This document shows positions 1,074 to 23,324 of a stretch of 29,748 bases of DNA, in pieces. Position 1 is the stretch's first letter. The number at the start of each line of letters is the position of its first letter. The notes beneath the pieces were generated by a model. It did no database searches. It was not told the DNA's origin and saw nothing but the letters and a program-made list of their open reading frames with translations. Both the position numbers and the translations under genes were made by a program. The DNA is taken from positions 1 to 29,748 of the IMG/VR virus record IMGVR_UViG_3300033182_000852; one strand, written 5' to 3'. Source of the DNA: a virus.

Positions 1074-1373
1074 ATGGCTAAAGAATCGACAAGTACTGTT
1101 TCAAAAATAGAATTAAAATTTCCTTCAAGATATAATGTTGTCTTGATTAATGACGACTACACCCCTATGGATTTTGTTATTCAGTTGCTGATCGAAATTT
1201 TTAATCGAAGCATTAACGAAGCAAAAGATATTACAATGCAAATTCATGAGAATGGGAAGGGCATAGCAGGCACTTACAGTCACGAAGTTGCAGAACAAAA
1301 ACATGCAGAATCTGTAATGATATCGAGGCATCATGGCCACCCATTAAAAATCATTATAGAGAAAATGCAGTGA
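1074..1373 (+). CDS. clpS: ClpS, ATP-dependent Clp protease adaptor
   Basis: The 99-residue product matches the adaptor that hands N-degron substrates to ClpAP/ClpCP. The recognition pocket is intact: N26-D27-D28-Y-T30-P-M32-D-F-V (family NDDYTPMEFV), M55 and H58 in MQIH, and L91 in [24 protein letters not shown] is also typical. It is the first gene after the consensus promoter, and its stop (TGA 1371-1373) overlaps the GTG start of sufB, so the two are translationally linked. The product could redirect the host Clp protease or speed turnover of particular proteins; which ones is unknown. No Clp ATPase or protease gene is present in the window, so it would have to use the host's. Confidence 0.95.
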
Positions 1374-2818
1374 CCGAATATAGAGAACTAGATAACAAAT
1401 ACACAGCAGGATTTAGCACAAACGTAGAGAGTGAAGACTTTGCACCTGGGCTAGATGTTAACGTTATCAAACGAATCAGTGCAATTAAAAATGAGCCTGA
1501 GTGGGTCACTGAGTTTAGACTTAATGCATTCAAACATCTACAAACAATTACTGAACCCAATTGGGCAAATGTCAAATACAATCCTATAGATTATCAAGCA
1601 CTCAGTTATTATTCAGCACCCAAGTATAGAAACAAAGAGGACATACCACAAGAGATATTAGATACATTTGAAAAGTTAGGTGTGCCCTTACATGAACGAG
1701 ATGCATTACTGGGCATAGAAGAAAAAGATCCAAACATTATTCCTACAGTGGCAGTTGATGCAGTTTTTGACAGTGTCAGTGTAGCAACAACATTCCAAGA
1801 AGAACTTAAAAAGCACGGCATCATATTTTGCAGTATGAGCGATGCTATACAAAACCATCCAGAATTAGTTAAAAAATATTTAGGTAGTGTTGTTCCATCT
1901 AAGGACAATTACTTTGCTTGCCTAAATAGTGCCGTCTTTACGGACGGCACATTTTGTTATATTCCAAAAGGAGTTAAATGTCCTATGGAATTGAATACAT
2001 ACTTTCGTATCAATGCTAGGAACACAGGACAGTTTGAACGCACTTTGATCATAGCAGATGCGGACAGTTATGTCAGTTACTTAGAAGGCTGTACAGCACC
2101 AGCATATGATGAAAACACACTACATGCCGCTGTAGTAGAACTAGTAGCACACGATAACGCAGAGATCAAATATAGCACAGTACAAAACTGGTACCCAGGT
2201 GACGAGAATGGAGTGGGTGGTGTACTAAACTTTGTAACAAAAAGAGGATTATGTAAAGGTGAAAATTCAAAAATTAGTTGGACTCAAGTTGAGACAGGCA
2301 GTGCTGTTACTTGGAAATATCCCTCCTGTATATTACGAGGCGACAATAGTGTTGGTGAGTTTTACAGTGTTGCGGTAACCAAAGGCAAACAACAAGCAGA
2401 CACCGGAACAAAAATGTTCCATGTAGGAAAGAACACAAAGAGTACTATTATCAGCAAGGGCATAAGTTTTGATGATAGTGTAAACACTTATCGAGGAAAG
2501 GTTAGAATCAATAAAAGTGCTAATAACAGTAGAAACTATACACAGTGCGATAGTTTGATGTTAGATAACAGTAAGGCATTGACATTACCGGTAGTTATGC
2601 AGTATAATAATAATAGCATTGTAGAGCACGAAGCAAGCACAGGTAAACTTTCAGAGGATGCTCTATACTATCTACAAAGCAGAGGTTTTAGTGAAGAAGA
2701 TGCTGTGAATTGTATTGTAAGCGGTTTTTGTAAAGACGTATTTCAGCATTTGCCGTTAGAGTTTGCGGCAGAAGCAAATAAATTGTTGAGTGTTACACTT
2801 GAAGGAGCAGTAGGGTAA
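1370..2818 (+). CDS. sufB: SufB, Fe-S cluster scaffold subunit
   Basis: SufB is the scaffold subunit of the SufBC2D complex on which new Fe-S clusters are built. The 482-residue length is close to E. coli SufB (495). The N-terminus has [18 protein letters not shown], a family hallmark, and the beta-helix core is present. In [10 protein letters not shown]393 corresponds to the sulfur-accepting Cys405 of E. coli, and H420-E421 in VEHEAST to the essential His433-Glu434 pair. The C-terminal [18 protein letters not shown] is also typical. The start is GTG 1370, overlapping the clpS stop; the next gene starts in the overlap TAATG. All key residues are retained, so the protein should be functional. 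Confidence 0.97.
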
Positions 2819-3525
2819 TGTTAGTTACACAAGAGTTTACAGTAAAAGTCGATGGGGGCATTATTCTAGATGACTTACATTTAGAATTTGGTCCAGGCAT
2901 TCATATTGTCATGGGGCCTAATGGTGTAGGTAAAAGTACTTTTGCTCATGCTCTTATGGGTAATCCCAAATATCAAACAGAAGGAGCAGTGCAAATTGAT
3001 GGTAAAGATTTGCTGTGTTTAGAAACATATGAACGTGCTCAAGCAGGATTGTTTTTGAGTTTTCAGCACCCTATACCTATAGAAGGTCTTAGCAACTTTC
3101 AATTTTTAAGGCAGGCAATAAAAACTTCTAGCATATCTAACAGTTTATCGACGTATAGAGAACTACTCAGTAAATTTAACTTGCCTGAGGGCTTTGAAAG
3201 AAAAAGTTTAAATGTAGAGGCCAGCGGTGGAGAGCAAAAGAAAAACGAAATTATTCAAATGTTAATGCTTGATCCTAAAGTTGCCATTTTAGATGAACCT
3301 GATAGTGGTCTTGATATTGATGCTATAAATGTTTTAAGTGAACAATTAACAAATTTTGCTAATCAACAAAACAGAACACTGATTGTGATAACACACTATC
3401 AACAACTAATAGAAAAATTATCACCGGTGTCAATTACCATATTTAAAAATAAACGAGCAAAACAGTTTGATGATATCTCTGTTGCTTACGAAATATTAGA
3501 AAACGGATTTAGTATAGATGTCTGA
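2818..3525 (+). CDS. sufC: SufC, ABC-type ATPase of the SUF complex
   Basis: This 235-residue ATPase powers conformational change in SufBC2D. Visible motifs are Walker A GPNGVGKS (33-40), Q-loop Q83 in LSFQHP, a signature SGGEQKK (136-142) in the family context ASGGEQKKNEIIQM, Walker B AILDEPDSGLD (from 156), and the switch His193 in ITHYQQL. The signature and Q-loop resemble SufC rather than transporter ATPases, and no transmembrane partner is encoded nearby. The ATG overlaps the sufB stop by one base, with GAAGGAG upstream. The next start (3518) lies inside its end. Confidence 0.97.
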   Translation: MLVTQEFTVKVDGGIILDDLHLEFGPGIHIVMGPNGVGKSTFAHALMGNPKYQTEGAVQIDGKDLLCLETYERAQAGLFLSFQHPIPIEGLSNFQFLRQAIKTSSISNSLSTYRELLSKFNLPEGFERKSLNVEASGGEQKKNEIIQMLMLDPKVAILDEPDSGLDIDAINVLSEQLTNFANQQNRTLIVITHYQQLIEKLSPVSITIFKNKRAKQFDDISVAYEILENGFSIDV

Positions 3526-4672
3526 TTTTGTTTATCCTTTTGGCAATTTCCAAACATTGTTAGCGATGGGTTATCGTAATAACCTACTTTCTGGCAAACG
3601 CTTTTCAGATGAAATATATAACAGTTCTAGAAACGAAAATAAAAAAACATTGGAAACAAATTTTTTAAAAGAAGAATTTTACAAAAATATGCAACTCGAA
3701 AAGTTAATGAGTGCAACTGTAAACACAAAGCCTACTAAAAATACTAAAGTTGAGGATTACGTTATACTAGTATCTGACGGGCAAATAGAGTGGCATCCAA
3801 ATTTAAAATATAATAGTAGAAGAGCAGTAAGAACATTTGATTACTTTAACAGCAATAATAATTTTTCGTTATATCAAAAATACTGCAAAAGGAATAATAG
3901 GCTAGGAGATTTAGCATATCTAAATTGTATTTCTCCTGTAGGTATGTCTATAAGTGGTAATGTAGATCCTAAAATAACATATAGTTCGCTTGCTAAAGAC
4001 AGCCTAGATTGTAATGTAGTGTTTATTGATATTAGTAAAGGCAACAACGTAAGACTACAAGAAGAGTTTATTAATAATAACATCATGTTAACAAAGATTT
4101 ACTACATTATCAGGGAAGGTGCATCTCTAGAATTAATAAGAAGTCATTCAAAGTCGAATTACAGTGTAACAGAAAGTTGCGTGATTCAACATCCTAATAG
4201 TCATTTTTATGCAGATGTATATTCTGATTTAGGTACTTACTCACAAGACATATTTGATATTGATTCGTATAAAAATTGTACTTCTTATTTCTATAGCAGA
4301 AACAAAATAGCAGACAACACTTCTAACAATGTAAGTGTTAATATAAATCACTATGGAAAAGATAGCAAAAGTTTAATCGATATTAAAACAGTTTTAGATG
4401 ATAAGTCCTATAGCTCATTTCGAGGAAATATTAACATTGTAAAGAAAGCAGAAAATGTATCTGCAAAAATGATTAATAAAAATTTATTATTAAGTAACGA
4501 AGCAGTAGCAGTTACTGAACCAAATCTAGATATTAACACTAAAGAAGTAGAATGCTCACATGGTTGTACAATAAGTAATATCGACAAGGACGTTTTGTAT
4601 TATTTAAACTCTAGGGGTTATAATGATACACAAGCAAAACAAACTATCATACAAGGATTTTTATCTAAATAG
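3518..4672 (+). CDS. sufD: SufD, Fe-S scaffold subunit
   Basis: The 384-residue product is the SufB-related partner that forms the SufB-SufD interface where clusters assemble. Family identity is clearest at the C-terminus: VECSHGCTISNIDKDVLYYLNSRGY, which matches the CSHG-x-x-x-x-x-ID-x-x-x-x-FYL-x-SRG pattern. H348 (with C346) corresponds to the His360 region of E. coli SufD. The N-terminal 200 residues diverge strongly, which is normal for SufD, and the gene is noticeably AT-rich. It is somewhat shorter than E. coli SufD (423). Its ATG lies eight bases inside sufC, and the stop is four bases before sufS. Confidence 0.93.
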   Translation: MSDFVYPFGNFQTLLAMGYRNNLLSGKRFSDEIYNSSRNENKKTLETNFLKEEFYKNMQLEKLMSATVNTKPTKNTKVEDYVILVSDGQIEWHPNLKYNSRRAVRTFDYFNSNNNFSLYQKYCKRNNRLGDLAYLNCISPVGMSISGNVDPKITYSSLAKDSLDCNVVFIDISKGNNVRLQEEFINNNIMLTKIYYIIREGASLELIRSHSKSNYSVTESCVIQHPNSHFYADVYSDLGTYSQDIFDIDSYKNCTSYFYSRNKIADNTSNNVSVNINHYGKDSKSLIDIKTVLDDKSYSSFRGNINIVKKAENVSAKMINKNLLLSNEAVAVTEPNLDINTKEVECSHGCTISNIDKDVLYYLNSRGYNDTQAKQTIIQGFLSK

Positions 4673-4676
4673 AACC

Positions 4677-5855
4677 ATGAAAGACTTTTTTAAAACATTA
4701 ACAAATAACCCTGAATTAGCATATTTTGATAGTGCGGCCAGCACACAAACATTTCAAGGTGTAGTGAATCGCATAACTCAATACTATGAGCACGAACGAT
4801 GCAACGTACATAGAGGAGACTTCCCTCAGAGTATAAAAGTAACACAAGATTGCGAAGAGTCAAGAGAAAGTATTGCAAAGTTAATTAATGCTGATGCTGA
4901 ACAAATTATGTTTACCTCTGGTGCCACAGATGGATTAAACATGGTTGCTAAGTGGTGCGAAAATGCCAAAGTTGTAATTATTAGTGAAGCAGAACATAGT
5001 GCAAACATATTGCCCTGGATAGCTCAAGGCAGAACAATAGATAATGGTAGATTAGTAGTATTACCATTATCTGAAAGAGGTGTTGTAGACCCAGATGTTG
5101 CGAATGAGGCATTTAAAAAATACTCCGATGCTGTGCTAAGTTTAATATCAACTAGCAACGTAAACGGTCTTACTAACGATTTAAAAACAATTATAAGCAT
5201 GGCACACGATCATGGTATACCAGTATGTATAGATGCGTGTCAAACATTGAGCAGTCACAAAGTTGATGTGGAAGAACTTAAACCCGACTGGTTAGTTGCT
5301 AGTGGTCATAAAATGTTTGGGCCTACCGGCATAGGCTTTTTATATAGCAGAGTAAACTATAAAGAGTTTAAACCAATTAAATTTGGAGGCGGAACTGTAA
5401 ACAGTTATAACTTTCATGGTTCGGTAGATTTTTATGATGGCCCTATTAAACATGAACCAGGCACACCTAATATAGCAGGCATATTAGGCTTAGGTGTTGC
5501 GGCAGAATGGATTAATTACATCGGGTACGACGAAATAAGAGAACATTTATCTAAGGTTCAAAACACATTAATAGATCAAGGACTGTTCAATATTAGTGGT
5601 ATGCATTTGATTCATCCTAGTGACAGTATTAGAAATGTTTTTAGTTTTACAACTGATGTGCATCCTGCAGATATTAGTGCATTTCTCGGTTTACAAAATG
5701 TTGCAGTTAGAGTAGGTAAGGTTTGTGCTCACCCATTAGTAAATAAGTACGGAAAGGGATCTATACTTAGGGTTAGCACACACATATACAACGACGAACA
5801 AGATTGTAAAAAATTAGTAGAAACATTATGCCAGACGATACAGAAATTAAGTTAG
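4677..5855 (+). CDS. sufS: SufS, class II (SufS-type) cysteine desulfurase
   Basis: This PLP enzyme takes sulfur from cysteine and passes it on as persulfide. From ATG 4677 the protein has 392 residues (E. coli SufS 406). Hallmarks are AYFDSAAST at the N-terminus, HRGDFP, TSGATDGLN, the PLP lysine K212 in ASGHKMFGPTGIG, EPGTPN, and the catalytic C350 in RVGKVCAHPL, whose short loop is of the SufS/CsdA class, not IscS. The frame is open upstream to 4623, but that extension overlaps sufD and has no family match. SufS enzymes normally need SufE or SufU to accept the sulfur; neither is seen here, so a host partner or direct transfer to SufB is required. Confidence 0.96.
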   Translation: MKDFFKTLTNNPELAYFDSAASTQTFQGVVNRITQYYEHERCNVHRGDFPQSIKVTQDCEESRESIAKLINADAEQIMFTSGATDGLNMVAKWCENAKVVIISEAEHSANILPWIAQGRTIDNGRLVVLPLSERGVVDPDVANEAFKKYSDAVLSLISTSNVNGLTNDLKTIISMAHDHGIPVCIDACQTLSSHKVDVEELKPDWLVASGHKMFGPTGIGFLYSRVNYKEFKPIKFGGGTVNSYNFHGSVDFYDGPIKHEPGTPNIAGILGLGVAAEWINYIGYDEIREHLSKVQNTLIDQGLFNISGMHLIHPSDSIRNVFSFTTDVHPADISAFLGLQNVAVRVGKVCAHPLVNKYGKGSILRVSTHIYNDEQDCKKLVETLCQTIQKLS

Positions 5856-6151
5856 AAGATAGAGTACGCAGTAACTTGCGTAAAGTGATTGATCCTGAAA
5901 TAGGAATCAATATTGTTGACTTAGGATTAGTTTACAATATAGATGTTAATCAAGAGAACGATGTGCAAGTGTTAATGACATTAACAGCACCTAACTGTCC
6001 TTTCGGTGAAATGATAATGATGGAAACCGAATTTGCAGTGAGGAGTGTTAAAGATGTAAATTTAGTAAAAATTAATTTGACTTTTGATCCGCCATGGGAT
6101 CCTGATCAACATGTTTCAGACGAAGCCAAATATCAAATGGGTATTTACTAA
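5828..6151 (+). CDS. sufT: SufT-like DUF59/MIP18 Fe-S assembly protein
   Basis: The 107-residue protein belongs to the DUF59 (MIP18/PaaD/SufT) family, which helps cluster maturation or carrier transfer to target proteins. It has VIDPEIGINIVDLGLVY (20-36), LTAPNCPFGEMI with the conserved C57, and the C-terminal FDPPWDPDQHVSDEAK pattern seen in SUF-operon members. Its ATG lies 28 bases inside sufS, indicating strong coupling. DUF59 genes sit at this place in many alphaproteobacterial SUF operons, usually followed by a SufA-type carrier. Here the next gene is a peroxiredoxin and no A-type carrier is seen. Confidence 0.92.
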   Translation: MPDDTEIKLEDRVRSNLRKVIDPEIGINIVDLGLVYNIDVNQENDVQVLMTLTAPNCPFGEMIMMETEFAVRSVKDVNLVKINLTFDPPWDPDQHVSDEAKYQMGIY

Positions 6152-6191: not shown

Positions 6192-6707
6192 ATGAATACA
6201 GTACCTGACGTAACTTTTATTGCTAGAGTGAAATCTGATAATGCACCTGGCTGGACCTGGGCAAACATCTCAACAGACGAAATTTTTAGCGGTAAAACTG
6301 TTGCAGTTTTTGCATTGCCTGGAGCATTTACGCCAACATGTTCTAGCACACATTTGCCAGGCTACGAATCAAATTACGATGAATTGCGTAAACAAGGAAT
6401 CGACGAAGTATATTGTTTGAGTGTGAACGATACCTTTGTTATGAACTCTTGGCTGTCATCACTACAAGTAGATAATGTAAAAGCACTGCCAGATGGCAGT
6501 GGCGAATTTACTCGTAAGATGGGAATGTTAGTAGATAAGGATAATCTTGGTTTTGGCTTTAGGTCTTGGAGATATTCTATGATTGTAAAGAACAGAGAAA
6601 TTACTAAGATGTGGGTAGAGCCTGGATTCGCTGATAATGCTGAGGGCGATCCTTTTGAAGTATCAGATGTCTACACTATGCTGACATATCTCAAAGCAAA
6701 TGCCTAA
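6192..6707 (+). CDS. Peroxiredoxin, Prx5 type
   Basis: This 171-residue thiol peroxidase reduces hydrogen peroxide and alkyl hydroperoxides. The active site is intact: P43-GAF-T47-PT-C50, with peroxidatic Cys50, followed by HLPGY. Other Prx5 features are EVYCLSVNDTFVMNSW, GFGFRSWRYSMIV with the conserved Arg, and a C-terminal PGFADNAEGDPFEVSDV. The start has a strong SD, GGAGG, seven bases upstream. No fused glutaredoxin is present, so reducing power must come from host thiols. Its place after the Fe-S genes suggests protection of clusters or of their assembly against peroxide. The stop overlaps the next gene by eight bases. Confidence 0.95.
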   Translation: MNTVPDVTFIARVKSDNAPGWTWANISTDEIFSGKTVAVFALPGAFTPTCSSTHLPGYESNYDELRKQGIDEVYCLSVNDTFVMNSWLSSLQVDNVKALPDGSGEFTRKMGMLVDKDNLGFGFRSWRYSMIVKNREITKMWVEPGFADNAEGDPFEVSDVYTMLTYLKANA

Positions 6708-7350
6708 TGAAAAACTAGAGATCATATCATGGAGCGAATATCAAAAAGGTATTGCTCCATTATGGAAAATAGAAGATCCTAGCACAATACCAATATGGAA
6801 TAATCCTTACTATATTGTACAGTATCCGCAACACATGTGGCACACTGATATAATGCTATTTCCTGTAAAATACACTGTAGACAGCGTTACAGTAGCACAC
6901 AGTTGCGTATATAACATAGACGATATGTTTATACGAACAAGAGGCATATTTGTAGAGCAAGAACATAGAGGTAAGGGCTATGGTCATAAAATGCAACAAG
7001 CACAGTGGGACTTGTTCCCAGAAACATTTTTTCGAGCATTCGGCTTTTGGCGAGAAGACTCTGCCCCACGTTTTCAAAAGTATAGCGACATGCAAGTAGT
7101 CCCGGGCACCGATTGGATATGGAGTGACTTCAGCAAAGTGAATATGCGATTCTTATATGTCGAACGAGGACCTAAACCTACAAAAAAACAACTGCTAGAT
7201 AATAAAGACTTTATAGAATCAAACAGAGAAAAATATTCGCTAGGAGGAACCAATAACCTGAATGTTAATTGGGATATCATCGAATGGGAAAATTATTTCG
7301 AAACACACAAAGGAAATTACAAAAATCTTCAAATAAATTTAAATTTTTAA
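6700..7350 (+). CDS. GNAT-family N-acetyltransferase
   Basis: The 216-residue protein has the acetyl-CoA-binding motif A of the GNAT fold: RGIFVEQEHRGKGYGHKM, with the pyrophosphate loop R90-GKG-Y-G95 after a beta strand. The flanks (a domain rich in W, Y and P before, and an Asn/Lys-rich tail after) are not diagnostic, so the substrate is unknown; a small molecule, sugar or protein amine are all possible. It overlaps the peroxiredoxin by eight bases and ends the overlapping run that begins at clpS. A 22-base gap with a late promoter box separates it from the next gene. Confidence 0.8.
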   Translation: MPNEKLEIISWSEYQKGIAPLWKIEDPSTIPIWNNPYYIVQYPQHMWHTDIMLFPVKYTVDSVTVAHSCVYNIDDMFIRTRGIFVEQEHRGKGYGHKMQQAQWDLFPETFFRAFGFWREDSAPRFQKYSDMQVVPGTDWIWSDFSKVNMRFLYVERGPKPTKKQLLDNKDFIESNREKYSLGGTNNLNVNWDIIEWENYFETHKGNYKNLQINLNF

Positions 7351-7372: not shown

Positions 7373-8509
7373 ATGAAACAAAACACACTAGATCCCAGAT
7401 GGGACAATCAAATAGTAAACTACGATTTACAAAAATATAACTGGCGAGAATATTTTTTAGAAGCAGTAAGAGACAAGTATCCTCAAGTAACAGAACTAGA
7501 AACTGTGCATGAAATTTTTAAGCCTAACGAAATAAACGATTTCGTTTGGAACGTACAGCGTATATGTAAATCTGAAGAGTTTGCTAGAATGCTTGATAAC
7601 TTTGTAGGCGAAAACTTTGCACATCTGCTAGACAACGAAGAATTTATGATTCAAGATGTTGTGGGTATGCGAGTCGTCATTCCTAATCAAAGCAAACACG
7701 GCAGAACACTTAACTTCCATCAAGGTATTTGGTACGGACATGGCCCTGGTATGTACAGTATCTGGACTCCTCTAACTAAAGCATGGGATAGTAATACTAT
7801 GCAAATCTTACCCTGGGATGCGAGCAGAAAAATAACACAACAGACTTATGACAACAAATGGAGTTATAAGAAAATACAGGAAGAGTGTTTAAAGCATGCT
7901 ATCCCATGCAACACTGAACCAGGACAGAGTTGGTTATTCCAGCAAGGTCATATTCACGGCAATATAAACAACGATACAGACATAACTCGTTGGAGTTTTG
8001 ATACTAGAGTGCTGTTAAGAGGGGGAAATTACGGGAAGAGAAGACCGGGTGGCTATTTTAGATTGTACAAAACTTATAGAAAACCTATTACAGATATAGA
8101 TACTAGTTTGAACTGGATTAACTATATTGATATGGAAACAAGATTTAATAAAACAACACCGTTCTTTTGGACTTCTATGGTAATGGATCAGTTCTGCAAA
8201 GACAACGGCATTACACCAGTTGATTATCCATTAGAACTTAGTTTCTGTACATGGGAGCCTATGCTAGAAGATTTTTTAAAAGACGAACATATTGGCGGCA
8301 TAATTATACCTAGTATTTTAGGTATGACTGCAGATAAAGAACGTAGAGACTATTTGCTCAACTTGGCACTGGAAAAGAAGAAGCCAATTATTTTTGTTGA
8401 CGAAAGAATTAAACTTGATAGTGCAGAAGAATTATATTATATTAACAGTCTACTAGAGTTCATCACGGATGAACCAGAACCAGACTTACTTTTAGGACAC
8501 ACACGATGA
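7373..8509 (+). CDS. PhyH-like oxygenase fold fused to LIC12192-like domain, paralogue 1 (HxG variant)
   Basis: This 378-residue protein has two parts. Residues about 100-230 resemble the 2OG-Fe(II) oxygenases of sporadic carbohydrate clusters: IPNQ, FHQGIW, WTPLTKAW, NTMQILPW, then PGQSWLFQQGHIHGN, DITRWS and PGGYFRL. Residues about 265-365 resemble the small LIC12192-type partner protein of the same clusters (GGIIIPSILGM, ERRDYLLNLALEKKKPIIFVDE). These families are recalled from memory and not searched. The expected iron ligands are H116 and H195, with R206 as the likely 2OG anchor, but the usual Asp of H-x-D is G118. That pattern is known from Fe/2OG halogenases, and it could also mean loss of activity. 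The start is confirmed by alignment with the tandem paralogue, which shares LDPRWDNQ near its N-terminus. Confidence 0.8.
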   Translation: MKQNTLDPRWDNQIVNYDLQKYNWREYFLEAVRDKYPQVTELETVHEIFKPNEINDFVWNVQRICKSEEFARMLDNFVGENFAHLLDNEEFMIQDVVGMRVVIPNQSKHGRTLNFHQGIWYGHGPGMYSIWTPLTKAWDSNTMQILPWDASRKITQQTYDNKWSYKKIQEECLKHAIPCNTEPGQSWLFQQGHIHGNINNDTDITRWSFDTRVLLRGGNYGKRRPGGYFRLYKTYRKPITDIDTSLNWINYIDMETRFNKTTPFFWTSMVMDQFCKDNGITPVDYPLELSFCTWEPMLEDFLKDEHIGGIIIPSILGMTADKERRDYLLNLALEKKKPIIFVDERIKLDSAEELYYINSLLEFITDEPEPDLLLGHTR

Positions 8510-9642
8510 GCTTACACGACTTAGACCCAAGATGGGATAATCAAACATACAGTTATGATTTAGAAAAGCACAACTGGCCAGAGTACTGGTTAAATGTTGC
8601 TAAAGAAAAATTTCCACAAATAGAATCACTTGAAACGGTACACAAGATATTAACACCGGATGAAATTTTAGAATTGGGCAGGCACTGCCAAACAAAATTT
8701 GATACAGTAGAACTACAAGATAAGATTGACGCATACTATAGTGATGCAGTACCAGGGCTAATTGATGTCGACGATTGGATGATACAGCGATTCTTTACAG
8801 TAAGAATTGTTATCCCTAATCAAGCAAAAGTAGGCAGACTGTTAGCATTCCATCAAGGCATTTGGGTTGGTAACGGTTTAGGATTAAGAACAGTGTGGAC
8901 ACCATTCACTAAATGCTACGGTAACAACAGCATGCAAATCATGGACTGGGAAGAGAGCGATAGAATAACAAAAGATGCGTATACTAATCGTTGGAGTTAT
9001 GATAGATTACAGGAAGAGTGTGCAACACACTGCTGGCCGGTTACACTAGAGCCAGGACAGGCACATTTATTCCAACAACATCACATACACGGCAACTTTA
9101 ACAACGACACTGACATTACCCGTTGGAGTATGGATGGTAGAATACTGCCAGTAGGCGGGCACTACCATAGGAAATTACCTGGTGGGTATTTTAGATTTAT
9201 CGGCGAAAGACCAGATACAAGAACTATAGATACTAGCAAGAAGTGGATCAGTTATGCAGGATGGAATAGTGAGTTTAGTAATCCTATTCCTTTACCAATG
9301 CAAAGAGGAATTATTAACGACTACTGTAAAAAGAATGATATTAAGATTAACGACTATCAGTTTGAAAATGAATTTTTAGATTGGTTACCTGGATTAGAAA
9401 AATACATTACAGGTTACGGTGTAGAAGGTATTGTGTTATGTAGTATCTACTGCTTACCCGATGACCCATTTAGAAGACAATCATTATTACAACTCGCCGT
9501 AGAACATAACGTAGAACTTCACTTTGCAAACGAAGTATGTAGTGTAAGAGACTTAGACGACGTTAAACATATTCAAAGAATTTTTAAATTTGTTAATGAA
9601 AACACATCACCAAATGAGACCTTAGGATATGACAAAGTATAG
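8506..9642 (+). CDS. PhyH-like oxygenase fold fused to LIC12192-like domain, paralogue 2 (HxG variant)
   Basis: This is a tandem paralogue of the preceding gene, also 378 residues, co-linear throughout and overlapping it by ATGA. It keeps LDPRWDNQ, IPNQAK, FHQGIW (H116, G118), WTPFTK, NNSMQIMDW, EPGQAHLFQQHHIHGN (H195), DITRWS (R206) and PGGYFRF at matching positions. The C-terminal domain has EGIVLCSIYCLPDD and ELHFANE. The shared Gly in place of the metal-binding Asp shows that the substitution was either present before duplication or selected in both copies. The sequences have diverged considerably, so the copies probably act on different substrates or together. Substrate and reaction are unknown; the neighbouring glycosyltransferase and sulfotransferase genes suggest a glycan or lipid. 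Confidence 0.8.
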   Translation: MSLHDLDPRWDNQTYSYDLEKHNWPEYWLNVAKEKFPQIESLETVHKILTPDEILELGRHCQTKFDTVELQDKIDAYYSDAVPGLIDVDDWMIQRFFTVRIVIPNQAKVGRLLAFHQGIWVGNGLGLRTVWTPFTKCYGNNSMQIMDWEESDRITKDAYTNRWSYDRLQEECATHCWPVTLEPGQAHLFQQHHIHGNFNNDTDITRWSMDGRILPVGGHYHRKLPGGYFRFIGERPDTRTIDTSKKWISYAGWNSEFSNPIPLPMQRGIINDYCKKNDIKINDYQFENEFLDWLPGLEKYITGYGVEGIVLCSIYCLPDDPFRRQSLLQLAVEHNVELHFANEVCSVRDLDDVKHIQRIFKFVNENTSPNETLGYDKV

Positions 9643-10717
9643 ATATCATGTTGTTTACGAGCCTGGATTTGTAAACTACACCGGCAGTAATGTCAGTGAA
9701 GAGTTTTATTGGCACCTCGAACCAGAAAAGATTATGGAAGTGGATCAGCGTCAGACAGTTACGTGGGAACTGAACGACTTACCACTTACCAAAAAATTCA
9801 TAGATGCGTACAGATATAAAGTGCATGCAATTTGTTATGATTTGATGGTAAGACGTAGGAAAAAATCATGGAGAATGATTGCTGACATTTATAAAGGTTT
9901 AACTACAGAAGATGTTTTGGCCAGCAGAAACGAAATGAACTGTATTATAGAATGGCTGAATACTGATTACAGAGATAATATTTGGTTTGATATTCCTAGC
10001 GAATTAAAATTAAATGAAGTTGATATTTTTGATAAACGTGATAAAAGTTTAAACGAGTTGCACGACCATTTTGAAACTAGAATGGTAGAACTAGAATCAA
10101 AAGTTAGTAGAGGCGAAGTCGATGCAGAAACTCATAATATTCTATGGAATAAATTACAATCTATAAATCTATTAGTACATTACAATGAGAGGTTAGGTGT
10201 AGAAAACAGTATTGAAAAATTAGACAGTGCTGAGCCAACATACTTCACCAGTTTGAAATGTGATTCGCCTAAAAGAACAGAAATAAAGTTGTTGCCAGAA
10301 GATTACAAACATTTTACTATGGTACGTTCTAGCAATGCTCTTACATTAGACTTTGGCACTGTTGGAAAAGATTTATTTACATGCAGTGTAACAGAAGACG
10401 AAGAACTAATTTACAAAGATATGATAAGCCAGCAATGGGAGCTCAATCCATGGGTGCAATACGACTTTACTGCTTGCAGTCACGACGAATGGTATGGTGA
10501 TCAAATGGAAATTTATAACAAATGGATTGTGGATAAAAAAATCGGTGATTATTTAGATCTTTCAGATCCAAAGTTTACTCCAGGCAGGCATCAACTAGGC
10601 GAGTGCATAAGTCACAACTTTACATGCGGTAAAGATTTTATTGATCAAATCATTACGACTACACCTAAAATACACGCATTTTTCATTACCGATGAGAACA
10701 ATCAAAGTATACTCTAA
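9629..10717 (+). CDS. Hypothetical protein, 362 residues
   Basis: I recognise no family. The protein is rich in Asp, Glu, Trp and Tyr, with no signal peptide or membrane segment. A Lys/Arg-rich patch (VRRRKKSWRM) lies near residue 75, and a stretch predicted to be helical, ELHDHFETRMVELESKVSRG, near residues 140-160. The second half has several Trp and Cys residues and ends in HQLGECISHNFTCGKDF. It overlaps the preceding oxygenase-like gene by 14 bases and the following glycosyltransferase by 26, so it is a fixed member of the operon and probably takes part in the same glycan-related pathway. That role is inference from position only. Confidence 0.8.
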   Translation: MTKYRYHVVYEPGFVNYTGSNVSEEFYWHLEPEKIMEVDQRQTVTWELNDLPLTKKFIDAYRYKVHAICYDLMVRRRKKSWRMIADIYKGLTTEDVLASRNEMNCIIEWLNTDYRDNIWFDIPSELKLNEVDIFDKRDKSLNELHDHFETRMVELESKVSRGEVDAETHNILWNKLQSINLLVHYNERLGVENSIEKLDSAEPTYFTSLKCDSPKRTEIKLLPEDYKHFTMVRSSNALTLDFGTVGKDLFTCSVTEDEELIYKDMISQQWELNPWVQYDFTACSHDEWYGDQMEIYNKWIVDKKIGDYLDLSDPKFTPGRHQLGECISHNFTCGKDFIDQIITTTPKIHAFFITDENNQSIL

Positions 10718-12038
10718 TGAGTATTTTAACAGCGGCGTAACACTTTTAAGTTTAGGAATCCCTGATCCTAGATGGAAAACTCACAGTGATGATGAGAGCG
10801 AATTCAATAACATAAAAAACAACGATAAACATGCATACATGCCCTATCTCGAAGCAGACATGTTTAGATATATATTAAACAGTGTAGGGTTAGACTGCGA
10901 TTACACCTATAAAAAATCTGACCCACACTCGCTGAGAATAATAGATATTGGCAGTTACCACAACTGGACACAAGTAGCAGTTAAAGCAAACGCTTTTTTC
11001 AGAGGCATGCCTTTTATTCTTTACAGCAGTCAAGAACCCTGTATAGATGTGCAAGAAATATGCAAGCAGTTGCCTAATTGTTTTGTTATGGACATGGCAT
11101 ATGGTGCCTCGTTACACGAAAGACACATACCGTTTCCTTCGTTCTTTACAAGACTTGTAAATAATTTTCTCAATGTCAACATCAATTATCACACAATAAA
11201 TCTCAAACACACAGAATACAAGAGTTTTATTTTTAACAATTTAAAATTTAGATCCGATAGTGTGAAAACTATAACTCAATTCTTCTTAACACATTGTAAA
11301 GGTATTTTGGATAAAGGCATAGTTACATACAGCAGAGATAAAGGACACCTTTCTTCAAGGGCCATGACAGATCAAAAATGGAATTTATTTAAAAGTACAT
11401 ATGAAAATGTTTTCCAAGATAAAAACAGGATTAAGATTTTAAAAGATTACAGTGGTAACGTAGATATAGATATAGATTCATTAATGTCCAACGATTGTTT
11501 TGAGAATTTTTTATATAGAGTAAATGATGTAACATTAAATAATTGGGCTCTTAATTATCTAGGAGATACTCCTTTTAGTAATAGAAGAAGATATCATCCT
11601 ATATGGGTTTATAACAAATCATATTTCAGTATGATAACAGAATCTACATCAGCAAATGGAACATTATGTATTAGTGAAAAAAGCATATATCCAATTATGA
11701 TGGGACATCCTTTTATTATAGACAATAAACAACAAGGATTATATTATAGAAGTTTAACAGAACTAGGGTTTGAATTATTTGATGAGATATTAGATTATCC
11801 TACCTATCCATTAAATGATAATGATCAGCCATTGAGCTCGTTAATAAACTGTGTCGACAATATAGAAAATTTTAGTATTAACAAGTATATTAGAAACATA
11901 GAAAGTATTACGAAAAAATCTGCACACAATAGATCAAATATGTTAAATACACACAGCATACTATGGAAAAGATTAAGGAAAATCATGCATGAGAATTTAG
12001 AAAAATATTTTGATGCATGTACCAATTATGGAAATTAA
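10692..12038 (+). CDS. Glycosyltransferase-like protein (phage/LPS type)
   Basis: From ATG 10692 the product has 448 residues. The C-terminal third carries a pattern shared by a family of viral and LPS glycosyltransferases: SMITEST, then ISEKSIYPIMMGHPFII and LTELGFELFDEILDYP (compare the usual TE-x-x-x-x-x-x-FxTEK-x-x-K-x-x-x-x-HPFI...LGF-x-x-F). The same C-terminal pattern reappears in the broken gene at 26.6-27.6 kb. An open frame extends upstream to 10641, but this lies inside the preceding gene and adds no recognisable sequence. The donor sugar and acceptor are unknown. The gene is AT-rich and overlaps both neighbours, fitting a single operon. Confidence 0.75.
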   Translation: MRTIKVYSNEYFNSGVTLLSLGIPDPRWKTHSDDESEFNNIKNNDKHAYMPYLEADMFRYILNSVGLDCDYTYKKSDPHSLRIIDIGSYHNWTQVAVKANAFFRGMPFILYSSQEPCIDVQEICKQLPNCFVMDMAYGASLHERHIPFPSFFTRLVNNFLNVNINYHTINLKHTEYKSFIFNNLKFRSDSVKTITQFFLTHCKGILDKGIVTYSRDKGHLSSRAMTDQKWNLFKSTYENVFQDKNRIKILKDYSGNVDIDIDSLMSNDCFENFLYRVNDVTLNNWALNYLGDTPFSNRRRYHPIWVYNKSYFSMITESTSANGTLCISEKSIYPIMMGHPFIIDNKQQGLYYRSLTELGFELFDEILDYPTYPLNDNDQPLSSLINCVDNIENFSINKYIRNIESITKKSAHNRSNMLNTHSILWKRLRKIMHENLEKYFDACTNYGN

Positions 12039-13815: not shown

Positions 13816-14553
13816 ATGAAATTTTTAATTATAGGTGATGTACATGCAGAGTTTGCACCGTTTCAAAAAGCGGTACAATTCGCTGTGGATAACGATTTGC
13901 ATTTGGTGTCTGTGGGAGATCTCATTGATAATGGTCCTGACGGCTTCAAAGTATTAACATTATTTAAACAGTTAGTAGATCAAGATAAAGCAACACTAAT
14001 TATCGGAAACCACGAGTGGAAGATACACAGATGGTTGTTAGGCAGAGATGTTAAGATAACTGCACCAAATCAGGTCACTGTAGATCAGATGAACAGCAAT
14101 CAATTCTTTAAAGATGTGTTTAAAGATTTAATGAGCAAAGCAGTTCACTTTACACAGTTAAACGATAGCATGTTTGTTACACACGCCGCAATGAGCAAAA
14201 ATTTTTGGGACACAAAAGAATTGACTGCTCACAACAGAGATAGAATGATGTACTCTTTTGCTGACCACAGCCAAATTGCTCATTACAGAGGCGAAACATA
14301 CCCTATCAGATTGTACGATTGGGTAGATGATGTTCCTTCAGGTATTAAGTTATTTGTGGGACACGACCCTAGGCCTATGATAGGTGTGCCTAATTTTGAT
14401 AACTTCCAAGTTGCTCCTTCTGTAGTTAAGAACGACAACGGAGGTATTACAGTATTCTTAGATACTGGTTCAGGAAAAGGTGGTACCTTATGGGGTACAG
14501 TAGTAAATAGTGTTACGTCTGAAATAGAGCAGTTTAGGAACTTTAGCATATGA
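13816..14553 (+). CDS. Calcineurin-like metallophosphoesterase (ApaH/PrpE type)
   Basis: This 245-residue protein shows the dinuclear-metal motifs of the calcineurin-like phosphoesterases: GDVH (7-10), GDLIDNG (34-40), GNHE (64-67), then FVTHAAM and FVGHDPRP supplying later histidines. The order and length fit bis(5'-nucleosyl)tetraphosphatase or PP2A-like phage phosphatases, but the substrate (Ap4A-type nucleotides, RNA ends or phosphoproteins) cannot be fixed from sequence. AGGAG nine bases upstream supports ATG 13816. It is the first gene of the operon after the promoter at 13762 and overlaps the next gene by ATGA. Confidence 0.9.
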   Translation: MKFLIIGDVHAEFAPFQKAVQFAVDNDLHLVSVGDLIDNGPDGFKVLTLFKQLVDQDKATLIIGNHEWKIHRWLLGRDVKITAPNQVTVDQMNSNQFFKDVFKDLMSKAVHFTQLNDSMFVTHAAMSKNFWDTKELTAHNRDRMMYSFADHSQIAHYRGETYPIRLYDWVDDVPSGIKLFVGHDPRPMIGVPNFDNFQVAPSVVKNDNGGITVFLDTGSGKGGTLWGTVVNSVTSEIEQFRNFSI

Positions 14554-14996
14554 AACTTGACTACAAAGATTGTGGTAAGATAGGTTTTACATGCAGTACA
14601 TTTGATTTACTACATGCAGGCCACATCACTATGCTAGAAGAGGCTAAAAGGCACTGTGATTATCTAATAGTGGGGTTGCAGGTTGACCCCACTATAGATC
14701 GTCCAGACTCTAAGAACCTTCCTGTGCAAAGTATTGTTGAAAGACAAATACAATTAGCCGCAGTTAAATATGTAGATGAGATTGTAATTTATAACACTGA
14801 GCAAGATTTAATAGACATACTGCTAACACTTCCTATAGATGTAAGAGTATTAGGTGAAGAATACAAAAACAAAGAGTTCACAGGAAAAGATATAGCAAAA
14901 AAACGAGGAAGTAAAATAGTTTATAACGGTAGAGATCACAGTTTTAGTTCTACCAGTTTAAGGAAAAGAGTTTTTCAAGCAGAACAAGGAAAATAA
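14550..14996 (+). CDS. Cytidylyltransferase-like nucleotidyltransferase (TagD/RfaE-C type)
   Basis: The 148-residue protein has the HxGH nucleotidyltransferase signature, STFDLLHAGHITML (HAGH 22-25), and the second nucleotide-binding motif SSTSLRKR (133-140, family form SSTxIRxR). Size and motifs match glycerol-3-phosphate cytidylyltransferases and the adenylyltransferase domain of RfaE/HldE, which join a sugar or polyol phosphate to CTP or ATP. It could make an activated sugar or polyol for the glycosyltransferases encoded elsewhere in the window, but this is inference. It overlaps the phosphoesterase by four bases and abuts the membrane gene that follows. Confidence 0.88.
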   Translation: MKLDYKDCGKIGFTCSTFDLLHAGHITMLEEAKRHCDYLIVGLQVDPTIDRPDSKNLPVQSIVERQIQLAAVKYVDEIVIYNTEQDLIDILLTLPIDVRVLGEEYKNKEFTGKDIAKKRGSKIVYNGRDHSFSSTSLRKRVFQAEQGK

Positions 14997-15442
14997 TGAA
15001 CAATAACTTAAAGGCAGGCATACTATTATTCGGTACATTAATTCTAAGTAGACTTTTGCCGTTGCCGGCAAACAGTGAACCATTATTAGGTATTGCTGTA
15101 CTTACGCCCTACATTTCCAAAAGCAATCTAGCATTTCTATTTCCGCTGGCAGTTATGTTTGTTTCAGATGCTATTATAGGTTTTCATAACAGTATGATAA
15201 TGACATATACAGCAATAGCACTAGCACCATTTGTTAGTAAACTACTGCAAGATAAAATTTATACATCATTGTTTGCCAGTTGGTTAATTTGGCATGTATT
15301 TGCAAACATTGGGCAACTGTATCCGCCTTTTAGTTTAGATTCATTACTGTTTGATATTAGATTTTTAATAAGTGGTTTTAGTGTTGTAGCACTATACGAT
15401 TTAACAAGGAGATTATGGCAGTATCGCGCAAGAGACATATAG
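14996..15442 (+). CDS. DUF6580-like multi-pass membrane protein
   Basis: This 148-residue protein has about four hydrophobic segments (near residues 7-25, 45-63, 65-85 and 120-140). SRLLPLPANSEPLLGIAVL and LAFLFPLAVMFVSDAIIGFHNSMIM resemble DUF6580 proteins, which look like small-molecule transporter S-components. Its substrate and role in infection are unknown. The start ATG shares a base with the stop of the preceding gene. The last 28 bases overlap the next membrane protein gene, so the pair is probably made together. Confidence 0.78.
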   Translation: MNNNLKAGILLFGTLILSRLLPLPANSEPLLGIAVLTPYISKSNLAFLFPLAVMFVSDAIIGFHNSMIMTYTAIALAPFVSKLLQDKIYTSLFASWLIWHVFANIGQLYPPFSLDSLLFDIRFLISGFSVVALYDLTRRLWQYRARDI

Positions 15443-15666
15443 CAAAAACAATCACATGGCGTGTAGTTGCAACCACAGACACATTTATTATAACATTTCT
15501 TGCTAGTGCATTTGGTTTTGGTTATACCACAGAACAAGCAGTAGCACTTGGCGGAGTTGTAGCAGGGTTTGAAGTTGTAACAAAGATGGTGCTGTATTAT
15601 TGGCATGAACGTGCATGGTACAATTATATTGGCTTTGGGTTAGATAAGAAAGATGCTAAAGAGTAA
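15415..15666 (+). CDS. DUF2061 membrane protein
   Basis: The 83-residue protein matches the DUF2061 pattern: KTITWRVVATTDTFIITFL near the start, two hydrophobic helices, and a terminal KMVLYYWHERAWYNYIGFG. DUF2061 genes are found in bacteria and marine phages, and sometimes beside sulfate-assimilation genes in bacteria; the function is unknown. Two membrane helices place it in the inner membrane. It overlaps its neighbours by 28 and 14 bases. GGAG precedes the ATG by about five bases. Confidence 0.87.
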   Translation: MAVSRKRHIAKTITWRVVATTDTFIITFLASAFGFGYTTEQAVALGGVVAGFEVVTKMVLYYWHERAWYNYIGFGLDKKDAKE

Positions 15667-16168
15667 GTTTGTCAAAGCATACATGGACACTGCTTACACG
15701 TTTGCAAATTTAAGCAGTGCAAAACGTGCAAAGGTCGGGTGTGTTGTTGTAAAAGACAATCGCATTATCTCTATTGGCTACAATGGTATGCCTAGTGGAT
15801 GGACTAACGAATGCGAAACACACGAAAAAATAAATGATGTTCCTCACATGAGAGAAGAATATTTAAAGCAAGGTTATCTAATGCACCAAGGAGGTGACAG
15901 TATAACTTGGTATAAATCAATTACTAAAGCAGAAGTGCTACACGCAGAAGCAAATGCCATTGCTAAAGTTGCTCAAAGTAATGAAAGTAGTAAAGATGCA
16001 GATCTATTTTGTACACACATGCCTTGTATAGAATGTGCTAAACTCATACACCAATCTGGAATAAAGAATGTTTATTACTCAATAGATTACGATGCGGCAA
16101 AGGGCTCTGGTAAAGAATTTTTAGAACAAAGCAAAATAGGTTTAGTCAAAGTCGATGTCGAATCTTAA
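15653..16168 (+). CDS. Deoxycytidylate (dCMP) deaminase
   Basis: The 171-residue enzyme turns dCMP into dUMP, the precursor for dTMP. Zinc-binding residues are present: H98-A-E100 in LHAEANAI and C125-x-x-C128 in MPCIECAKL, with the substrate-region YNGMPSGW and NECE. A longer insertion between the two halves (about residues 55-95) is typical of phage and eukaryotic dCMP deaminases. Such enzymes are common in T4-like phages for supplying thymidine nucleotides. No thymidylate synthase lies in this window. It overlaps both neighbours by 14 bases. Confidence 0.93.
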   Translation: MLKSKFVKAYMDTAYTFANLSSAKRAKVGCVVVKDNRIISIGYNGMPSGWTNECETHEKINDVPHMREEYLKQGYLMHQGGDSITWYKSITKAEVLHAEANAIAKVAQSNESSKDADLFCTHMPCIECAKLIHQSGIKNVYYSIDYDAAKGSGKEFLEQSKIGLVKVDVES

Positions 16169-17525
16169 ACATATAGATTTAGAAATTTCAAGTACTTGTC
16201 AAGCAAGTTGCCCTATGTGCGTTAGAAACACTGCTGGCGTACAGATTATTAATCCTGCAAATCAAACATTTGCATCAATCAAAAAAGCATACAAAAGTAT
16301 TTCTAAACAATTAGAAACTGTTACCATGTGTGGCAATATCGGTGACAGTATGGGTAACAAAGAAATAGGATTAATATGTCGTTGGTTTATAATGCGTAAC
16401 CCCGACATACTTATTAATGTTCACACCAACGGTGGCTTAGGCAACCCGGATACATACACAGAACTTGCACAACTTGGTGTTAGAGTTATCTTTGGTATCG
16501 ATGGCTTAGAAGATACCAATCATTATCACAGAGTAGGAGTTAAGTGGTCTAACATTGTTAAGAATCTAGAAGCATATCAACGTGGGTTTGAAAACAAAAT
16601 GAAAGTTCGTTGGACTAAATATTTCAATGACGATGATGACTGCGGTGAGTATGGTATGGCAGAAATTCAAATGATTCTGTGGCGCCATAATCAACATCAA
16701 ATATTAGACATGGCAGAGTTTGCACAAAAGTATAAAGCAGACTTGTGGTACAGAAAACCAGTGATACATGCACAGGACGGCCTCAATGGTGGTATGCCAA
16801 TCTTCAAAGCCAACGGAGAATGGAGCCACAATATTCACGAGCCAGATGAAATGTTAGCAAAGATCAGCAGTTATAGATTTAGTGCGCCACATCAATGGTT
16901 TGATGGTAACAATCTACGAGATCATGTTATCAAAGCAATGGATGACATACATACCAAAGAAGGTATTGCAATACACAAATGGAAAAGAATACTAGCAGTG
17001 CAAATGCCTGTGGACACAACAACTATTACACCTGTAATAAAAGATTGGGGCAAGAATGCAAAACCTTTGTTTATGTTAAACAATGTAGGAAACTATGAAG
17101 CAGATCTAACCAAAGAAGAGATAACAGAATACAGCACACCGGTTGCATGTAAGAGTTTTAATTTTAATAACCCTGCAGACTTAACAGACACAGAAGCAGA
17201 GCGAGAAATATTTGTTGGGGCAGATGGATATGTTATGCCGTGCTGTATGATGGGATCAGCCCTCAGCATGCATTTACAAAACAACGTAGAAGGTAAAATT
17301 AGACAGCACTTTGTAAACAAAGTTTTAGAAATTGGCATAGACAAGTTTGATACTAAAAAACATACTGTAGAAGAAATAATTGCCAGCGATGCATTAGATC
17401 AGTTAGTGTACAATAACATTGCTAACAATGATGTAAGGCACGGTAGATTGCCTATATGCAGTATGTATTGCGGAACGCACAATGCACACGGTCGCCCATC
17501 TTTAGACGAGCGAGATGCCGGTTGA
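16155..17525 (+). CDS. Radical SAM protein with SPASM/twitch-like C-terminus
   Basis: This 456-residue protein has the 4Fe-4S motif C15-x3-C19-x2-C22 in ISSTCQASCPMCVRN and a partial TIM-barrel pattern (VTMCGNIGDS, NVHTNGG, IFGIDG). Cys-rich segments at the C-terminus, GYVMPCCM (C363, C364) and CSMYC (C435, C439), resemble SPASM/twitch domains that bind auxiliary clusters. Members of this class modify peptides or make small molecules. No obvious substrate peptide is encoded directly beside it. It would need one or more 4Fe-4S clusters, a possible client of the SUF genes upstream. It overlaps the deaminase by 14 bases and ends the operon. Confidence 0.9.
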   Translation: MSNLKHIDLEISSTCQASCPMCVRNTAGVQIINPANQTFASIKKAYKSISKQLETVTMCGNIGDSMGNKEIGLICRWFIMRNPDILINVHTNGGLGNPDTYTELAQLGVRVIFGIDGLEDTNHYHRVGVKWSNIVKNLEAYQRGFENKMKVRWTKYFNDDDDCGEYGMAEIQMILWRHNQHQILDMAEFAQKYKADLWYRKPVIHAQDGLNGGMPIFKANGEWSHNIHEPDEMLAKISSYRFSAPHQWFDGNNLRDHVIKAMDDIHTKEGIAIHKWKRILAVQMPVDTTTITPVIKDWGKNAKPLFMLNNVGNYEADLTKEEITEYSTPVACKSFNFNNPADLTDTEAEREIFVGADGYVMPCCMMGSALSMHLQNNVEGKIRQHFVNKVLEIGIDKFDTKKHTVEEIIASDALDQLVYNNIANNDVRHGRLPICSMYCGTHNAHGRPSLDERDAG

Positions 17526-17549
17526 CAAATAACTATTATATAGTATAAT
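17522..17549 (+). promoter_or_regulatory. Sigma70 promoter of the 17.5-21.2 kb operon
   Basis: TTGACA (17522-17527) overlaps the stop of the radical SAM gene. TATAAT (17544-17549) follows after 16 bases. The first gene start is at 17575. Both boxes are perfect. Confidence 0.85.
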
Positions 17550-17574
17550 ATGTATATAAATTAGGATTAATATT

Positions 17575-17790
17575 ATGGTTGCAAAAAGCACAACACAAAT
17601 GACTAAAGCAGAACTGCTTGAACTCATATCTGACAAAAACAGAATCATTGCAGAATTAAATTCTAAAATTGATGATCTTGAAGGTATGGCTGTGGCCAGT
17701 CAAAGTAAACCTCTTGATGCGGATGTCAGCAGATTGATCAGCAGTTTGAATCAAAGGATCAAAATACTAGAAGACAAGATTGATGGCTAA
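17575..17790 (+). CDS. Small coiled-coil protein, unknown
   Basis: This 71-residue protein is mainly helical: heptad-like segments (LLELISDKNRIIAELNSKIDDLE and RLISSLNQRIKILEDKID) are separated by a short Ser/Gln/Pro linker near residues 40-47, so it is likely a coiled-coil oligomer. I recognise no family. It is the first gene behind the promoter at 17522, with TAGGAT upstream of the ATG, and its end overlaps the next gene by eight bases. Confidence 0.75.
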   Translation: MVAKSTTQMTKAELLELISDKNRIIAELNSKIDDLEGMAVASQSKPLDADVSRLISSLNQRIKILEDKIDG

Positions 17791-18166
17791 AGTATTCGTG
17801 TACGGCACATTAAAAAGCGGTGGTGAACTTCGAGGCTTAGATCGCTTTGGAGACGGTGCTACCATTGTGGGTAAGGCAAAGACTGTTTATCCGGACTATG
17901 AAATGGCAGATTTGGGTGCATTTCCAGGTGTGTTCCTCAATGGTGAATATCACATTGAAGGTGAAGTATGGGAAGTTGATGAAGACACTATGAAAGACCT
18001 AGATGCTATTGAAGGTTACCCGGACTTCTATAATAGACAACTAACACATACCACAGAAGGCAAAGCATGGATGTATTACCTTGCAGGTGACACATACAAG
18101 AGCTACAAAGGCCAAAGAGGAAACCAAGTAATAGAGGACGGAGACACACTTAGATGGCAACGGTAA
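17783..18166 (+). CDS. Gamma-glutamylcyclotransferase-like (GGCT/AIG2 fold)
   Basis: From ATG 17783 the protein has 127 residues. It shows the GGCT-like fold: FVYGTLKSGG (5-14) forming the substrate loop, FPGVFLNG, EGEVWEVDED, and the proposed catalytic acid E77 in LDAIEGYP, ending with MYYL. Family members act on gamma-glutamyl peptides or amines, and the fold is common in phages with an uncertain substrate. A TTG three bases earlier is the only other possible start. It overlaps both neighbours. Confidence 0.9.
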   Translation: MAKVFVYGTLKSGGELRGLDRFGDGATIVGKAKTVYPDYEMADLGAFPGVFLNGEYHIEGEVWEVDEDTMKDLDAIEGYPDFYNRQLTHTTEGKAWMYYLAGDTYKSYKGQRGNQVIEDGDTLRWQR

Positions 18167-18459
18167 ATGAACTTATCGATAATATTGCACGATGGCATCA
18201 CGATAGAAACTTAATTGACGGCAGTGATGACAAAAGCCAGTTTGCTAAACTTATTCAAGAAGCAGGCGAACTATCAGACAACATCTGCAAAGGCAAAGAC
18301 ATTGCAGACGACATCGGCGATATGATTGTGGTGTTGATCAACATTGCAGAACGTAACAACCTTACCATTGAACAATGCTTAGAGCAAGCATGGGACGATA
18401 TCAAAGACCGCAAAGGTAAAATGGTCGACGGAGTATTTGTAAAAGAATCAGACCTATGA
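18154..18459 (+). CDS. MazG-like NTP pyrophosphohydrolase
   Basis: The 101-residue protein has the metal-binding motifs of all-alpha NTP pyrophosphatases: QEAGEL (E36 and E39) and ADDIGDM (D52, D53, D56), followed by VVLINIAERNNL and WDDIKDRKGKMV. MazG-type enzymes hydrolyse (d)NTPs or alarmone-related nucleotides to monophosphates and are frequent in marine phages. It overlaps the GGCT-like gene by 13 bases and the next gene by ATGA, among other nucleotide genes (GMP reductase, dCMP deaminase). Confidence 0.92.
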   Translation: MATVNELIDNIARWHHDRNLIDGSDDKSQFAKLIQEAGELSDNICKGKDIADDIGDMIVVLINIAERNNLTIEQCLEQAWDDIKDRKGKMVDGVFVKESDL

Positions 18460-18815
18460 CACTGGCATTAATCACATTGCTAATGGCCAAACACATTATT
18501 GCAGATTACTTTATGCAATACAGTTGGATGATCAAAGACAAAGGCACTTATGGTGCTTGGGGCGGTATTGCACACAGTGGGTATCATGGATTACTAACAT
18601 TGGGTGTACTGATGTTGTTTCCTATTCCAACTATGTATGCACTACTGTTAAGCATCGGTGACGGTGTTATACACTATCACGTAGACTATACCAAAAGCAA
18701 TTTTTGGAAAAATAAAAAATTAACACCAATGGATCAGCAGTATTGGATTGTACATGGTGTTGATCAATTTGCACACTTTTTAACTTATGTAGGAATCGTA
18801 ATACTATGCGTATAG
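18456..18815 (+). CDS. DUF3307 membrane protein
   Basis: The 119-residue protein resembles DUF3307: an N-terminal hydrophobic helix with KHIIADYFMQYSWM, a His-rich GIAHSGYHGLLTL, two further hydrophobic stretches, and [20 protein letters not shown] at the end. Three to four membrane helices with conserved histidines are visible. DUF3307 proteins occur in bacteria and phages without a known function. It overlaps its neighbours by four and ten bases. Confidence 0.87.
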   Translation: MTLALITLLMAKHIIADYFMQYSWMIKDKGTYGAWGGIAHSGYHGLLTLGVLMLFPIPTMYALLLSIGDGVIHYHVDYTKSNFWKNKKLTPMDQQYWIVHGVDQFAHFLTYVGIVILCV

Positions 18816-23318: not shown

Positions 23319-23324
23319 GTGTAC

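Follow-up and report, generated by a model that had tools for sequence, protein, structure and literature searches.

Uncultivated aquatic phages encode a family of fused HxG oxygenase-fold proteins that may include Fe/2OG halogenases of sugars or sugar precursors

The window analysed here, a 29,748-bp stretch from an IMG/VR virus record fragment, encodes two adjacent proteins, A and B, whose genes overlap by 4 bp (ATGA). Pairwise alignment gives 42% identity across 378 amino acids, with one gap. Each protein combines an Fe/2OG-type oxygenase domain with a fused C-terminal domain resembling LIC12192 (Table 1). Codon reading agrees with the earlier note on this DNA, which had placed His-Gln-Gly at residues 116-118, H195 and R206 in both 378-residue tandem paralogues. 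Comparison of A and B with close relatives gives dN/dS values of 0.02-0.06, which point to strong purifying selection and, with the open frames, rule out an annotation artefact.

Table 1. Positions of the tandem pair, its domains and predicted active-site residues, and the flanking reading frames in the window
Feature	Position	Strand	Basis or remark
GNAT-like ORF upstream of A	6700..7350	+	neighbour retained in relatives (cluster 45)
Protein A, 378 aa, HxG Fe/2OG-type oxygenase domain with fused LIC12192-like domain	7373..8509	+	ATG start
A, TIGR04324-like oxygenase domain, residues 39-230	7487..8062	+	
A, HxG motif H116-Q117-G118	7718..7726 (H116 7718-7720, G118 7724-7726)	+	codons; conservation
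A, H195, putative second iron-ligand histidine	7955..7957	+	homology
A, R206, putative 2OG-binding arginine	7988..7990	+	homology
A, C-terminal LIC12192-like domain, predicted serine-recombinase fold	8090..8506	+	
Protein B, 378 aa, tandem paralogue of A	8506..9642	+	ATG start
B, TIGR04324-like oxygenase domain, about residues 39-230	8620..9195	+	
B, HxG motif H116-Q117-G118	8851..8859 (H116 8851-8853, G118 8857-8859)	+	codons; conservation
B, H195, putative second iron-ligand histidine	9088..9090	+	homology
B, R206, putative 2OG-binding arginine	9121..9123	+	homology
B, C-terminal LIC12192-like domain, predicted serine-recombinase fold	9223..9639	+	modelled
362-aa ORF downstream	9629..10717	+	adjoins B in four related loci (cluster 90)

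We used NCBIfam profiles to assign the two domains. The oxygenase part matches TIGR04324 (SpoChoClust_2, a cellular 2OG-Fe(II) oxygenase family with a carbohydrate context by name) with 83.1 bits in A (E 2e-23) and 79.9 bits in B (E 2e-22), and the C-terminus (residues 261-362) matches TIGR04323/LIC12192 with 28.4 bits in A and 42.4 bits in B. All four scores lie below the NCBI curated cut-offs of 150 bits for TIGR04324 and 55 bits for TIGR04323; the LIC12192-like domain described in the earlier note is thus present in both proteins at sub-cut-off similarity. PhyH matches are weak. Among 74 family members, all match TIGR04324 and 70 match TIGR04323 at E<=0.01. Judged by sequence, A and B are homologous to TIGR04324 yet form a separate clade.

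The cellular proteins show where this clade departs from the canonical family. Cellular loci above the TIGR04324 cut-off (L126-L131) carry HSD or HAD, and in them a separate LIC12192-like ORF begins just before the oxygenase ORF ends, overlapping it; the statement that LIC12192 is normally a separate gene beside the oxygenase holds for these loci. In weaker cellular relatives, every motif that could be read is HxD or HxE. A and B share with the canonical proteins the homologous residues 39-230, the distal histidine, the arginine, their surroundings and the LIC12192 partner, but they differ in having HxG and in the fusion. A scan of viral contigs for the canonical family found one locus, using poor patterns derived from near-identical rows.

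We then considered whether HxG is a trait of the family. A first viral scan yielded 43 loci encoding relatives, later scans contributed the best 80 of 287 and the best 80 of 259, and pattern scans added further relatives, giving a conservation set of 185 distinct full-length proteins, nearly all from viral contigs. The HxG family is large and found in aquatic phages; no match to it turned up among INPHARED phages or PLSDB plasmids. One pattern match (L219) falls on a DNA-polymerase-like ORF and was rejected as chance. H116, H195, R206, G124, G126, W131 and D210 are invariant in all 185 proteins, whereas residue 118 varies, with Gly in 181 and Asp in the other 4. The invariance of the two histidines and the arginine, with the near-fixation of G118, shows that HxG is a family trait and not chance.

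The earlier note had proposed aligning these proteins with the sporadic carbohydrate cluster oxygenases. In a profile-profile alignment, G118 pairs without a gap with the Asp of the cellular HSD motif (FHQG against THSD), which indicates a true substitution and, together with the 185 sequences, excludes an alignment slip. The match to PtlH, in which FHQ-G stands against FHQDG, raised a one-residue Asp deletion as an alternative; this was rejected because canonical TIGR04324, HKD and HxG proteins share the same H-to-W spacing. The viral clade is therefore best described, from these alignments, as having dropped the carboxylate while retaining both histidines and the putative 2OG arginine.

The earlier note also held that another acidic residue completing the triad would count against its reading. 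D210 is the sole invariant acid in the oxygenase domain, and it coexists with an intact HxD in PtlH, in an HVD protein in L132 and in the HKD members. Because it also occurs in HxD proteins, D210 looks unlike a relocated ligand, and we consider it unlikely to replace the lost aspartate at the iron.

The four full-length proteins with Asp at position 118 (L070, L073, L226 and L228) have HKD in place of HQG, as do a partial copy (L227) and a frameshifted B copy in L009. The HKD members form one clade within the B group, nested in the HxG family (SH-aLRT 91), and the D/G state changes twice in all on the tree, which was built by a quick method and has a soft root because its outgroup is a single, very long branch. 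Given this nested position and the two changes, HKD was rejected as the ancestral state, subject to the soft root; we infer one D-to-G change followed by one later G-to-D reversion. L070 and L073 further depart from other B-group members close to the motif, at residues 117, 119, 121, 127 and 128. The return of Asp to precisely position 118 would be surprising in a protein that no longer needed iron, and the apparent reversion therefore favours a maintained, functional iron site. In L009, the HKD-type B copy (2024-3147) is split by an apparent frameshift, reflecting either decay or an assembly error, and adjoins an intact HQG A copy.

To examine the fold, for which the earlier note had called for structure prediction, an AlphaFold model of A was built with 74 aligned sequences (pLDDT 95.2, pTM 0.90). 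Foldseek returned the halogenase CurA as the best PDB match (E 1e-8), with the halogenase SyrB2 at rank 6 (E 2e-7); the leading matches were CurA, ThoJ, SyrB2, SptF, proline hydroxylase H11, PtlH and EctD, and many hydroxylases appear in the list at similar E-values. TM-scores normalised by query length are low (0.30-0.37) because the chain has two domains. At the sequence level, no match to PDB halogenases was detectable, and a single-protein search of the PDB gave only chance matches to LC3. The model settles the predicted fold of the oxygenase domain as a PhyH-like double-stranded beta-helix, a fold that leaves the reaction undecided.

The C-terminal domain of B, modelled alone (pLDDT 93), best matches the TP901-1 integrase (3bvp; TMq 0.65, E 2.4e-5), followed by gamma-delta resolvase and an IS607-like TnpA, and the top-ranked matches are nearly all serine recombinases. 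Pfam Resolvase is also the commonest sub-threshold match among the members (8 of 74, best E 0.027). By eye, the alignment shows no conservation at the recombinase Y-x-R-x-S and D-R-x-x-R positions; as the catalytic Ser and Arg positions are unconserved, the domain is not a working recombinase, and our guess from the model is a role in dimerisation or docking. The domain is thus homologous to LIC12192 but fused, and predicted to have the fold of a serine-recombinase catalytic domain. We know of no earlier statement of this fold for LIC12192, and a literature search found no mention of LIC12192 or of 'sporadic carbohydrate cluster'; the fold would be the first structural handle on this uncharacterised carbohydrate-cluster family.

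We assessed gene context across the family using a gene-order permutation test on 127 surveyed loci with 2000 shuffles. Four neighbours lie nearer the family gene than expected by chance, each at p about 0.0005, which is the floor of the test: an amidinotransferase (59 loci), whose best solved relative is inosamine-phosphate amidinotransferase (1bwd, E 4.5e-119); a small protein with a conserved HxD and a later His and Arg (56 loci); an aminotransferase-like, PLP-type protein with a weak Pfam match (42 loci); and an NAD epimerase/dehydratase (40 loci). The small HxD protein looks like an oxygenase from its sequence; profile searches gave it no family match and no PDB match, and a PDB profile search with the PLP-like neighbour was also without a match. 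In L193, L088, L160 and L078, and in some 55 viral loci besides, the StrB/SxtG-like amidinotransferase, PLP-type enzyme, small HxD protein and sugar epimerase recur as a module around the HxG gene; the set looks like a pathway to a guanidino or amino sugar or amino acid. In another subset of loci, ORFs that we take from their sequences to be glycosyltransferase-like recur (clusters 25 and 33).

A bacterial copy lies in a different setting. The Roseivirga member, 59% identical to B, is on a 957-kb contig (L046:8607-12304) beside ABC-2 exporter genes, a GDP-mannose dehydratase (GMD), an epimerase, a sulfotransferase and glycosyltransferases, and lies between two genes with a weak fucosyltransferase likeness that score below the Pfam cut-off. 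Among the matches listed, this polysaccharide locus holds the only HxG copy on a long bacterial contig. On other contigs the family gene adjoins phage-type ribonucleotide reductase, PhoH and exonuclease genes, which supports phage carriers.

The neighbours of A and B in the window include Suf genes, the GNAT-like ORF and a nucleoside phosphorylase. These form no clear glycan cluster, and the link to glycans therefore rests on the family. The earlier note had envisaged an enzyme acting on a glycan or lipid: the glycan contexts of relatives speak for this, whereas the window's own surroundings do not. Downstream, a 465-aa ORF (10641-12038) overlaps the end of the 362-aa ORF; family and PDB searches with it gave no match, and its C-terminal stretch (ISEKSIYPIMMGHPFI) is, we presume, reminiscent of phage glycosyltransferase-like proteins.

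Our leading reading, which we hold tentatively, is that A and B are active enzymes that use Fe(II) and 2-oxoglutarate, have the PhyH fold, share ancestry with TIGR04324 and act on a sugar or sugar precursor. Iron would be held by two histidines only (H116 and H195) and 2OG by R206, and the site vacated by the lost aspartate would be occupied by an external ligand, most likely chloride. A ferryl or ferryl-chloro species would then attack an unactivated C-H bond in a substrate of a glycan or metabolite pathway encoded by the phage, whether a sugar, a nucleotide sugar or a sugar-like precursor. The product would be a chlorinated or otherwise oxidised sugar that may alter a host-surface or phage glycan. 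The fused, non-recombining module of serine-recombinase fold would probably serve in dimerisation or docking. Among single reactions, chlorination would be the likeliest candidate. The HxG motif, distal histidine, putative 2OG arginine and halogenase-like fold expected of a halogenase were all found, and hydroxylases match the predicted fold as well. That the uncultivated phage clade as a whole consists of putative Fe/2OG halogenases of sugars or their precursors, with the nested HxG-to-HxD reversion perhaps leading back to a hydroxylase, we consider possible, if doubtful.

Searches based on HXG/A motifs have led to new Fe/2OG halogenases (PMC11186838), and in plants the emergence of the halogenase Menispermum DAH went together with a D-to-G switch (PMC12346261). 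DAH and its DAHy-like relatives are natural HxD/HxG relatives with D-to-G on the tree, as in the phage family (PMC12346261), but DAH is a plant 2ODD, and for the phage family one later G-to-D change is inferred in addition. SyrB2 and CurA-Hal (HxG/A) have likewise lost the carboxylate and kept two histidines and an arginine, and are among the top structural neighbours of A; they differ from A and B in gene context, and A and B are known from sequence and model. The earlier note's reading of HxG as a halogenase signature is accordingly borne out as regards the lost carboxylate and the CurA and SyrB2 neighbours, but not as a diagnostic of the reaction, because a human hydroxylase, AspH, shares this HxG site (PMC13168262); chlorination is for that reason unproven.

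AspH is the basis of the strongest rival. Human AspH binds iron through two histidines and a water held by D721, four residues before H725, and hydroxylates at this halogenase-like site without halogenating (PMC13168262). A and B may likewise hold a water through second-sphere residues, perhaps Q191, and oxidise a sugar-related substrate without halide. Q191 sits at the same H-4 offset as D721 and is conserved in 183 of 185 proteins, the exceptions (L226 and L228) both being HKD members; the parent family is, moreover, named an oxygenase, and hydroxylases are numerous in the Foldseek list. A and B thus resemble AspH in a predicted carboxylate-free two-His site and a polar H-4 residue, but AspH belongs to another subfamily, acts on a protein substrate and has Asp where A and B have Gln, which can hydrogen-bond but is not acidic. 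Q191 also occurs in canonical HxD relatives and in HKD L070 and L073, so it is not specific to HxG, and the H-4 residue does not decide between a halogenase and an AspH-like hydroxylase. With halogenases as the best structural matches, we regard hydroxylation of this kind as somewhat unlikely.

The same phenomenon could also arise if the iron site has decayed, leaving a non-catalytic sugar- or 2OG-binding or regulatory domain that acts, for example, with a partner enzyme; the earlier note had named such a dead binding protein as its alternative. Loss of a triad residue is a usual sign of enzyme decay, and the nearby small HxD protein of 56 loci could do the chemistry. However, H116, H195 and R206 are invariant, purifying selection on A and B is strong, and a nested clade, itself diversified, seems to have regained Asp at exactly position 118. 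These observations weaken the alternative, which we now judge unlikely.

A third iron ligand from the substrate or from a partner chain (as in an A-B heteromer), with a reaction other than halogenation, for instance epimerisation or desaturation, is very improbable: the tandem is retained in several contigs and would permit a heteromer, and nucleotide-sugar phosphates could bind metal, but 165 of 185 loci have a single copy within the stretch retrieved per locus and nothing points to an outside ligand. In L171, L188 and L190-L194, two HxG paralogues lie on opposite strands, without a tandem.

The earlier note had also regarded a phage halogenase as new. Flavin-dependent phage halogenases of the VirX1 type are already known (PMC10452541); they are a phage-borne precedent, but with flavin chemistry and from an unrelated protein family, and only the Fe/2OG type would be new. 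A literature search at the level of titles and abstracts found no phage Fe/2OG halogenase and no glycan-acting one. No chlorinated glycan of a phage or its host is known to us. If chlorination is correct, phages would represent a large and so far untapped reservoir of carbohydrate-acting aliphatic halogenases, and halogenated glycans a new kind of phage-host chemistry. Even if the proteins are hydroxylases, more than 180 HxG members and a nested clade that appears to have regained HxD would offer a natural test of halogenation versus hydroxylation.

Elsewhere, the stretches 1370-6151, 16155-17525 and 23319-25166 of the window together hold phage-borne SUF Fe-S assembly genes (SufB, a SufC-like ABC ATPase, SufD and SufS), a MIP18-like ORF and two radical SAM proteins, one with a SPASM and one with a B12-binding domain. 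With this combination the phage may equip enzymes of its own with Fe-S clusters. The MIP18-like assignment, and that of a peroxiredoxin-like ORF also in the window, are presumptive readings of the translations. A metallophosphoesterase, a cytidylyltransferase-like protein, a DUF6580 protein and a dCMP deaminase lie close together at 13816-19936, with an IMPDH/GMP-reductase-like protein at 18806-19936.
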